Shown here: positions 2,697 through 5,195 of the stretch, in pieces
How positions within the stretch are numbered: the stretch's first letter is position 1
Layout: each line of letters begins with the position of its first letter
NCBI GenBank assembly: GCA_016188625.1
Contig: JACPHL010000311.1
Location: 1-5,195, forward strand
Length of the DNA: 5,195 bases
Source of the DNA: Candidatus Rokuibacteriota bacterium
Lineage (GTDB): Bacteria > Methylomirabilota > Methylomirabilia > Rokubacteriales > JACPHL01
Reading direction: 5' to 3'
The notes under the pieces: generated by a model
What the model was told of the DNA's origin: nothing
The model's database searches: none
Seen by the model: only the letters and a program-made list of their open reading frames with translations
Made by a program: the position numbers and the translations under genes

Positions 2697-4202
2697 ATGA
2701 TCACGGAGACAGCCTTCACGGTTCGTGCCCGCGACATCGAGCCGGCCTACCTCCGGCTCGGCGTCGAGGAGATCGAGCGCCGGGCGGCCGAAGCGGTGGC
2801 GACCCTGGCCTCCTGCCAGGTCTGCCCCCGGAACTGCCGCGTGGACCGGCTCCACGGCAAGGTCGCGGTCTGCCGCTCGGCGCGGTACGCCCTGGTCGGT
2901 TCCCACTTCCCGCACTTCGGGGAGGAGGACTGCCTCCGGGGCTGGAACGGCTCCGGGACCATCTTCTTCTCCTGGTGCAACCTCCGCTGCGTCTTCTGCT
3001 TTCATCCCGACACCCTCATCGCGACCGATCAAGGCCTGACCCGCATCGCCGACCTGTTCGAGCAGGGGCAGGACGAGACGGAGGGGCAGGGGGGGAGGAC
3101 GCGGTTTCTCCATGGGAAGGTCGGCGTCGTGACGCGAACGGGAGGGGCGGCCCCGGTCGCGAAGGCCTTCCGTCACCACTTCACCGGCGACCTGATTCGG
3201 GTGAAACCCTTCAACTGCCCGCCCCTTTTGTTGACACCGGATCACGAGGTCTTCGTTGCCCCTAAGACGTCGCTCCGGGAGATCGTCAAGGTGGGGGCCG
3301 AGCGTTTGACGGGGGAGTACGATCTCGTGGTTCCCAAACGGGTGCCGGGAGGGATGGAGCTTGACCCGGCCACGGGGAGGCGGCATTCGAGATGGCGGGA
3401 GGCGGAGGGGTACTTCCTGGTGCCCGTCCACAAGGTCGAGCGCGTGCCCTACGATGGCGCGGTCTTCAATCTCGAGGTGGACGATCCCGACCACTCCTAC
3501 CTGGCTCCCTTCGTGGCGGTCGGCAACTGCCAGAACTTCGACCTCAGCCAGAAGGGGGAGGGGCTCGAGGTCGCGCCGGAGCGGCTGGCGGGGATGATGC
3601 TCGAGCTCCAGGCGCGCGGCTGCCACAACATCAACTTCGTGACCCCCGAGCACGTGGTCCCCCAGATCCTGGAGGCGCTGCCGTGGGCGATCCGGGGCGG
3701 GCTCCGGCTCCCCATCGTCTACAACACCAGCGCCTACGACAGCCTGGAGAGCCTCCGGTGGATGGACGGGATCGTGGACATCTACATGCCCGACTTCAAG
3801 GTCTGGGACGGCGCCGTGGCCAAGCGCTACCTGAAGGCCCCCGACTACCCCGACGCGGCGCGGGCCGCGATCCTCGAGATGCACCGGCAGGTGGGGCCGC
3901 TTCAGATGGACGAGCACGGGCTGGCCAGGCGCGGGCTCCTGGTGCGCCACATGGTGATGCCGGGGATGCTGGAGGAGACCCGCCGGATCGTGCGCTGGCT
4001 GGCCGAGGAGCTGGGCCCCGACACCTACGTGAACGTGATGGCCCAGTACTACCCCGCGGGGGCGGTCTCCGCGGAGAAGTATCCCGAGATCAACCGGAAG
4101 CTCTCCCGCTCGGAGTACGACGAGGCCGTGAGGCTCGCGCGCGAGGCCGGGCTCCGGCGCCTGGACGAGCGCCGGCCCCGCCTCCGTCCGCTCTGGGGAT
4201 AG
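2697..4202 (+). CDS. Radical SAM protein of the PflX family (COG1313), interrupted by an intein
   Basis: The precursor has 501 residues; removing the 177-residue intein leaves 324, the normal size for PflX-like radical SAM proteins. These use a [4Fe-4S] cluster and S-adenosylmethionine to make a 5'-deoxyadenosyl radical; the substrate is unknown. The N-terminal part has the family's extra cysteine set CQVCPRNCRVDR (C40, C43, C47) with C59, then HFGEEDCLRG and GSGTIFFSWCNLRC. The cluster motif CxxxCxxC is C94, C98 and a third Cys supplied by C278 after splicing. The C-terminal extein opens CQNFDLSQKGEGLEV and continues with GCHNINFVTPEHV, VYNTSAYDS, DIYMPDFKVW, RHMVMPGMLEET and NVMAQYYPAG, all typical of the family. 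ATG 2697 is preferred; a GTG at 2688 is in frame, and GTGAGG at 2688-2693 could act as a close ribosome binding site. dinB ends 26 nt upstream, so co-transcription is likely. The family call is firm. A specific link to pyruvate formate-lyase is not implied. Confidence 0.95.
   Translation: MITETAFTVRARDIEPAYLRLGVEEIERRAAEAVATLASCQVCPRNCRVDRLHGKVAVCRSARYALVGSHFPHFGEEDCLRGWNGSGTIFFSWCNLRCVFCFHPDTLIATDQGLTRIADLFEQGQDETEGQGGRTRFLHGKVGVVTRTGGAAPVAKAFRHHFTGDLIRVKPFNCPPLLLTPDHEVFVAPKTSLREIVKVGAERLTGEYDLVVPKRVPGGMELDPATGRRHSRWREAEGYFLVPVHKVERVPYDGAVFNLEVDDPDHSYLAPFVAVGNCQNFDLSQKGEGLEVAPERLAGMMLELQARGCHNINFVTPEHVVPQILEALPWAIRGGLRLPIVYNTSAYDSLESLRWMDGIVDIYMPDFKVWDGAVAKRYLKAPDYPDAARAAILEMHRQVGPLQMDEHGLARRGLLVRHMVMPGMLEETRRIVRWLAEELGPDTYVNVMAQYYPAGAVSAEKYPEINRKLSRSEYDEAVRLAREAGLRRLDERRPRLRPLWG
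2997..3527 (+). mobile_element. Mini-intein (Hint splicing domain, no endonuclease) in the radical SAM gene
   Basis: This in-frame 177-residue insertion interrupts CVFCQN between F100 and the Cys of CQN. Block A is CFHPDTLIATDQG, with Cys1 as the N-terminal nucleophile. Block B is LLLTPDHEVFV, with the TxxH catalytic residues T80 and H83 (intein numbering). Block F is YDGAVFNLEVDDPDHSYLA (152-170), with H166. Block G is FVAVGN, ending in Asn177 for cyclisation, followed by Cys +1. This is a complete class 1 layout. The penultimate residue is Gly176 instead of the common His. Between blocks B and F there are only about 60 residues and no LAGLIDADG or other endonuclease motif. Codon use differs from the host: by hand count about 28 of 177 codons end in A or T, against about 9 of 324 in the exteins, which suggests later acquisition. 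Intein boundaries are fixed by alignment with the expected CxxxCxxCQN motif. Splicing activity is inferred, not shown. Confidence 0.95.
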
Positions 4203-4206
4203 CCCC

Positions 4207-4259
4207 CCGGGCTCGCGTTTCTCGCCGCTACGGTCCCGCCCCCGGGCCCGCGAGCCTGG
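4207..4259. terminator. Long-loop inverted repeat between the converging genes
   Basis: CCGGGCTCGCG (4207-4217) pairs with CGCGAGCCTGG (4249-4259) over 11 positions, with one G-U pair on the + strand, across a 31-nt loop. It begins 4 nt after the radical SAM stop, and its right arm lies in the last codons of the opposing peptidase gene. The position suits a shared transcription end, but there is no T-run and the loop is long. It may simply reflect high GC content. Confidence 0.25.
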
Positions 4260-5195
4260 CGACGGCTCCGATGATCCCGTGCGCGGCCCGGGCGAACTCC
4301 CGGACGTTCACCTTGTCGGGGAGGTCGAGGGGACTGTGGTAGTGGGGGTAGCGGTACGGCGCCGTGTCGGTGACCATCAGCGCGGGGTAGCCCTCCTTCC
4401 AGAACGACCAGTGATCCGACCAGTCCACGCCCGGGATCCAGGGGAAGAGCGCCGCCCCCTCGACCGGGAAGTCGGTGGCCTCCGTGAAGTGGCGAAGGAA
4501 CTCGACCAGCAGCGGCCGCGACGCCGGATTCCCGACCGCGGCCAGGAAGTTCCCCCGATCGGGGTAGAAGGCCCCGAAGGGGAAGGGGTAGCGCTGGCTG
4601 CCCGGGGCCTCGGAGTAGTACCCGAGGGTCTCCAGCGAGATCATGGCCACGATCGCCTCGCCCCGCCTCCGGGCGTCCCGGGCGTGGACGCGGCTCCCCA
4701 TCGCCTCGGTCTTGAAGAACGGCGGCTCCTCGACGGCGAAGGCCACGAACCGGAGGGTCCGCGTCGGCGTCGTCCGCTGGAGCAGCGCCGGCATCTCCAG
4801 GAGCACCGCCACGCCGGTGGCGTTGTCGTTGGCGCCGGCGGTCCCGATGAGGGAGTCGTAGTGGGCGCCGACGAGCACGATCTCCTCCAGCCGGCTCGAT
4901 CCCGGAAGCTCCACGATGAGGTTGACCGCCCGCTGCCGGCCGACCTCGAACGGCTCCTCCCTCACCGGGAACCCCCGGGCGCGCCACACCCCGCGGATGT
5001 ACTCGGCGGCGGCCGCGAGGCCCTGGGGCCGGAAGAGGTTGCGCTCGCCGATCTCGCCCGCCAGGACCTCGACGTGCCGCATGAGCCGGTCGGCCAGGAC
5101 GTCGATCTCCTCCCGGACCGTCTCGCCCAGGACGGGGCGGACGATTCCCTTCGGCTTGACGTCGATCATGAAGACGTAGCCGATGGCGGCCAGGA
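4228..5195 (-). CDS. M28-family zinc peptidase (partial, 5' end outside window)
   Basis: The gene reads leftward and ends in TAG at 4230-4228. From the Met codon at 5169 there are 313 residues. The metal site of M28 aminopeptidase-like enzymes is recognisable: GAHYDS (H103), ANDNATG (D115, the bridging ligand), VEEPPFF (E147 as general base, E148 as ligand), SLET (E180) and YHSPLDLPDKV (H278). The fold would hold two zinc ions and hydrolyse peptide N-termini or a related amide substrate. The Met at 5169 is probably not the true start. The frame stays open to the window edge and reads LAAIGYVFMIDVKPKG, like the end of a membrane anchor or signal segment, so the enzyme is likely membrane-attached or exported. 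The substrate is unknown. The gene converges with the radical SAM gene, leaving 25 nt between stops, so it is a separate transcription unit. Confidence 0.9.
   Translation of the reverse strand, partial: LAAIGYVFMIDVKPKGIVRPVLGETVREEIDVLADRLMRHVEVLAGEIGERNLFRPQGLAAAAEYIRGVWRARGFPVREEPFEVGRQRAVNLIVELPGSSRLEEIVLVGAHYDSLIGTAGANDNATGVAVLLEMPALLQRTTPTRTLRFVAFAVEEPPFFKTEAMGSRVHARDARRRGEAIVAMISLETLGYYSEAPGSQRYPFPFGAFYPDRGNFLAAVGNPASRPLLVEFLRHFTEATDFPVEGAALFPWIPGVDWSDHWSFWKEGYPALMVTDTAPYRYPHYHSPLDLPDKVNVREFARAAHGIIGAVARLAGPGAGP

Follow-up and report, generated by a model that had tools for sequence, protein, structure and literature searches.

The window, the whole stretch of 5195 bases that was analysed, carries on its plus strand a frame-3 ORF (2697..4202) for a PflX-like (COG1313-type) radical-SAM protein precursor that contains an intein. 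The ORF opens with an ATG at 2697, closes with a stop codon at 4200-4202 and has 501 codons (501 aa). Its neighbours, at 696-1457, 1543-2670 and 4228-5193, encode a GYD-domain protein, a YbhB/PEBP-type protein, DNA polymerase IV and an M28 peptidase. The DNA polymerase IV gene lies directly upstream, separated by a gap of 26 bases, and the M28 peptidase gene lies downstream on the minus strand. No glycyl-radical enzyme is found among these window neighbours.

Host gene and rebuilt cluster motif

The N-extein has 100 aa (residues 1-100; 2697..2996, + strand) and ends in ...WCNLRCVF. The C-extein has 224 aa (residues 278-501; 3528..4199, + strand) and begins with CQNFDLSQ. Homologues with an empty site align to both parts, over query 1-101 (end to end) and 278-501. 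A first-pass annotation of this DNA had described an insert of 177 residues between CNLRCVF and CQNFDLS and a spliced host of 324 residues, and the translated ORF agrees with it on all of these points. Without the insert the motif reads CNLRCVFCQN, which is the CxxxCxxCQN that had been proposed. The Pfam Radical_SAM profile (PF04055, cut-off 29.5 bits) scores the unspliced precursor at 24.3 bits and the joined exteins at 35.8 bits. By its CxxxCxxC motif and this score the spliced host is a member of the radical SAM superfamily. Its further assignment is looser: the name PflX/COG1313-like is taken from the first-pass annotation and from resemblance of the motif rather than from a family model, and no NCBIfam family scored above its cut-off with the host.

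The three cysteines of the motif are Cys-7 (2976..2978, + strand), which is invariant in the alignment of same-site sequences, Cys-3 (C98; 2988..2990, + strand), a possible disulfide partner of the first intein residue, and Cys+1 (3528..3530, + strand), which falls where empty-site homologues have CVFCQN. Cys+1 is the presumed splicing nucleophile and, judged from the motif, would also be a [4Fe-4S] cluster ligand.

The insert is a class-1 mini-intein

The insert covers precursor residues 101-277 (177 aa; 2997..3527, + strand). In the translated ORF the precursor reads ...GTIFFSWCNLRCVF / CFHPDTLIATDQG...VFNLEVDDPDHSYLAPFVAVGN / CQNFDLSQ..., where slashes mark the junctions. Both junctions, CNLRCVF/CFHPDT and VAVGN/CQNFDLSQ, are in frame. 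The search against intein HMMs that the first-pass annotation had proposed gave a score of 31.0 bits with NCBIfam TIGR01445 (intein_Nterm; cut-off 24.5 bits); the match to Pfam PF14890 (Intein_splicing) has an E value of 1.3e-4 and is under its gathering score. An AlphaFold2 model of the intein, built from six same-site sequences, has the HINT fold with a mean pLDDT of 87. The top PDB matches of this model in Foldseek are inteins (E 3.5e-8), and in a VIA re-alignment the Z score is 20.5 for PhoCDC21-1 and reaches 20.2 for a full homing intein. All of the best 50 PDB entries are inteins or other HINT proteins.

All class-1 nucleophiles (Cys1, Asn177 and Cys+1) are present in frame. Cys1, the block A nucleophile (2997..2999, + strand), is invariant in two intein alignments. 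Block B is TPDH (intein residues 80-83; 3234..3245, + strand), of which T, P and H are invariant in 13 aligned inteins from the PflX and AmmeMemo sites. Blocks F and G, AVFNLEVDDPDHSYLAPFVAVGN (3459..3527, + strand), contain the F:4 Asn, the F:13 His, the penultimate Gly and the terminal Asn177 (3525-3527, + strand), as read from the sequence and the alignment. The TIGR01445 score, the HINT model and the class-1 residues confirm that the insert at the radical SAM motif is an intein, as first proposed, and specifically a class-1 mini-intein, far outside chance.

Two positions depart from the usual pattern. The penultimate His and the F:4 Asp are not found; Gly176 and Asn158 take their places. 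Neither residue is treated here as defining class 1, because the F:4 position is described as less conserved and splicing without the penultimate His is cited (PMC4031507). The penultimate residue is Gly or Ser in 7/7 PflX-site inteins, those of other phyla included, and the F:4 Asn is kept in all seven. Since relatives conserve both, Gly176 and the F:4 Asn are probably tolerated.

The HINT fold is shared with bacterial intein-like and hedgehog-type domains, which cleave without ligation, and hedgehog (1at0) and BIL domains are among the structure matches. Such a domain is a very improbable explanation, and we reject it: the insertion lies exactly within a conserved motif and has both Cys+1 and a terminal Asn, empty alleles exist, and relatives carry a homing endonuclease.

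Occupied and empty alleles

Among 79 classifiable homologues on genome contigs, the motif runs uninterrupted into the third Cys in 74, and an intein sits at that position in five. The first-pass annotation had named failure of insert-free homologues to align across CVF/CQN as evidence against an intein. Uninterrupted homologues do align there, so this comparison did not refute the intein. A match to the precursor was found in 30 of the 95 genomes of the phylum, not all of them with the PflX gene itself, and the site is occupied in four of the 95: the window genome, G025, G044 and G094. It is empty in G039 and G019, which are close host relatives of the window. Outside the phylum it is occupied in Thermoflexus (Chloroflexota; L093, L096) and in a Rhodothermus MAG (L092); in another Rhodothermus MAG (L154), whose host is 94% identical to that of L092, it is empty. 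The same-site inteins other than the window copy are mostly full-length with an endonuclease. The PflX-type site recurs as a target of full-length inteins across three named phyla. The contig of the window is short (5195 bases, from a MAG bin of 344 contigs), which would be in keeping with an assembly chimera. We reject this explanation, the least credible of those considered, on the grounds that six other genomes, assembled independently and with inteins that have diverged, show the same junctions and that there is no frameshift.

The G025 intein is 45-47% identical to the window, G044 and G094 inteins. Its dS is near saturation (2.1-5.2), and that of the host is 0.6-0.9. These values suggest that it was acquired independently; this is graded only as likely because a tree in which the Rokubacterial inteins form a single clade is not rejected by an AU test (p 0.165). 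Phage records searched for relatives of the intein gave no match, and plasmid records gave only radical-SAM genes without an intein part. A second PflX-like gene of G094 (contig C97, L075) is intein-free, belongs to another subgroup (HCNLRCVFCQN) and, in the host tree, lies close to the Rhodothermus type.

Loss of the endonuclease and selection on the splicing domain

Same-site inteins differ in length: 452 aa in G044 and G094, 252 aa in G025 and 177 aa in the window. The G094 intein has LAGLIDADG_3 and Hom_end matches. The window intein has no LAGLIDADG domain where one would lie, after block B and before block F; the deletion is at 3362/3363. In an alignment with the full-length G044 and G094 inteins the scar reads PGGMEL/DPATGRR (3360..3365, + strand), and PGGMEL and DPATGRR both flank the endonuclease in G044. 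Read from this alignment, the window copy has lost about 275 codons of endonuclease cleanly and in frame.

When the window is compared with G044 or G094, the splicing domain has a dN/dS of 0.20-0.22, and its dS is similar to or slightly above that of the host. The splicing domain looks constrained by purifying selection. A three-point estimate of omega on the window branch is 0.23, with a bootstrap interval of 0.10-1.5 and 2.9% of replicates at or above 1. As this interval is wide, selection may have been relaxed after the endonuclease was lost.

A decaying intein would splice poorly and yield dead precursor or cleavage products from a dispensable host. The loss of the endonuclease and the atypical penultimate Gly and F:4 Asn are in keeping with decay, as is the finding that most genomes of the phylum lack a PflX-type gene or gave no match to one, so that loss of the gene may be tolerated. 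Decay is nevertheless improbable, given that the reading frame, the nucleophiles and block B are all intact, that purifying selection appears to act on both splicing domain and host, and that the Gly-or-Ser penultimate position extends to every PflX-site intein, across phyla.

Inteins at cluster cysteines of other hosts

A second radical-SAM enzyme, AmmeMemoRadiSam (TIGR04337), has an intein at GCD[YL]HCxx/C in 12 Rokubacterial genomes, the window genome included; for three of the 12 a single junction was read, and the G044 copy is in two pieces. These inteins are full, partial or mini. AmmeMemo-site inteins are also present in six Chloroflexota genomes, and the gene is uninterrupted in other genomes. 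They resemble the window intein in their position at the homologous third Cys (GCDYHCGY/C...N/CQN), in sequence (30-40% identity over the N-terminal intein part with flank) and in having an endonuclease of the same type as the full-length PflX-site inteins. They differ in their paralogous host and in a penultimate residue that is Lys, His, Ser or Gly. On contig C192 of the window genome (L036) an AmmeMemoRadiSam gene contains an endonuclease-sized intein ending VAVGN/CQNYLTSQ, the N side of which is off the contig end.

In the intein tree, PflX-site inteins form one group (76/87) between two AmmeMemo-site groups, with modest supports, and IspG inteins fall far outside these groups. Transfer between the PflX and AmmeMemo hosts may have run in either direction, since a tree with the AmmeMemo-site inteins as one clade is likewise not rejected by an AU test (p 0.115).

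A viral contig in IMG/VR (L202:1457-3061) carries a QueE-like gene with an intein at CNLRCDF/C...HN/CDTAYA, the intein ending in VVHN. This gene is a third host at the same CxxxCxxC position, the third Cys. The NCBIfam model NF038136 aligns to residues 29-360 of this QueE, a stretch that starts shortly ahead of the Cys motif and takes in the intein, which suggests that the Rv2578c inteins it describes sit at the same site. Three other viral candidates were set aside: L203 has an intact radical SAM gene and no intein, the QueE match in phage JG054 is a gene of normal size, and L211 has an intein of terminase type in a host that is not a radical SAM protein.

Inteins are also seen in IspG/GcpE genes at VMG/CEVNGPGEA (L038, on contig C241 of the window genome, and L051, L053, L054, L055 and L185). 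The frame around the intein of the L038 copy is broken or incomplete in the assembly. The +1 Cys at this site of IspG is also a [4Fe-4S] ligand, so these bacteria have inteins at a second kind of iron-sulfur cysteine.

Proposed splicing mechanism and redox control

The interpretation that we favour, with high confidence, is that the insert is a cis-splicing class-1 mini-intein, the remnant of a homing intein, at the conserved third Cys of a radical-SAM CxxxCxxC motif. By established intein chemistry, Cys1 would undergo an N-S acyl shift, the N-extein would be transferred to Cys+1, and Asn177 would cyclise, so that the ligated host regains C-x3-C-x2-C-Q-N. The Cys+1 thiol would then be free to bind the [4Fe-4S] cluster. 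The first-pass annotation had assigned Cys+1 this dual role, and the assignment holds, its cluster-ligand half being drawn from the motif. Since one residue would be both nucleophile and ligand, correct assembly of the enzyme should be impossible before splicing. On this reading the lineage lost its endonuclease through the in-frame deletion, and the mini-intein now persists because only a precise deletion could remove it.

Cys-3 and Cys1 are both present and form a -3/1 pair of the type known from the Pyrococcus abyssi MoaA intein. Redox control of splicing through this pair is possible by analogy, although we consider it rather doubtful: the identical geometry is forced by the host motif and therefore does not point to selection for a switch, and the bacterial cytosol is normally reducing. 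The precedent for such control is the MoaA intein itself, in which splicing is blocked when Cys-3 and Cys1 are oxidised to a disulfide (PMC3922620, PMC10663303). Before splicing, the precursor has a complete CxxxCxxC made up of Cys-7, Cys-3 and the intein Cys1, because Cys1 sits in the register of the third Cys. More speculatively, a [4Fe-4S] cluster, zinc or a Cys-3/Cys1 disulfide on Cys1 might gate splicing, and the recurring site might be a general iron-sulfur checkpoint. This is unlikely, but if it were true, the PflX, AmmeMemoRadiSam, QueE and probably MoaA sites would be more than a landing place for parasites.

Relation to known inteins

It is well known that inteins can lie in conserved active-site motifs, and a site of the present kind has a precedent in the P. 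abyssi MoaA intein, for which Callahan et al. 2011 is reportedly the source study. Like the window gene, P. abyssi MoaA is a radical-SAM enzyme with an intein, an N-extein Cys-3 and a catalytic Cys1; from the -3/1 spacing given in secondary descriptions, its insertion site is very probably also the third Cys of CxxxCxxC. The window differs in being bacterial and in having a PflX/COG1313-like host and a mini-intein. Two NCBIfam models, NF038136 (rSAM_Rv_intein, Rv2578c family) and NF045703 (rSAM_Tes_intein), name radical-SAM families with inteins in other hosts; the window precursor matches NF045703 through its intein (E 4.1e-9). Archaeal inteins of the KlbA/VMA/PI-PkoII type (PDB 2jmz, 7qss, 2cw7) have the HINT fold and the endonuclease type in common with the inteins described here, but have other hosts and only about 15-24% identity. 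The mycobacterial SufB intein has an iron-sulfur-linked host and redox-sensitive splicing (PMC6195587); SufB is a scaffold assembly protein, whereas the window intein lies in a radical-SAM motif.

The open-access literature searched gave no description of inteins at the PflX or AmmeMemoRadiSam site, of their re-use across phyla or of a decay series. The new elements are two hosts (PflX-type and AmmeMemoRadiSam), the occurrence of the site in several phyla and the series of endonuclease decay; they add a host and a small clade to a kind of intein already on record. The short list of radical-SAM enzymes cut exactly at the cluster motif gains one clear host family and one paralogous one. The site also offers a natural series of full (452 aa), partial (252 aa) and mini (177 aa) inteins with matched empty alleles. 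With this series two questions can be put to a direct test: whether inteins at cluster cysteines act as sensors of oxygen, metal or clusters, and how homing inteins pass between paralogous genes with a common motif.

Other inteins in Rokubacteria

The phylum (Rokubacteria and kin) is intein-rich: TIGR01445 found a match in 68 of the 95 genomes searched. Some open frames have two or three intein starts (G074:C472, G019:C166, G038:C110, G058:C129). Among 30 further Rokubacterial intein loci, which are part of the full set, none is at a radical-SAM motif; their upstream sequences resemble SMC P-loop, RecA and replication-protein sites. Contig C84 of the window genome (L037:1-2202) has a UvrD-type helicase gene interrupted by an intein, which seems to include a GIY-YIG-like stretch, YVYLMERRG...RIGVTNDLAVRL.
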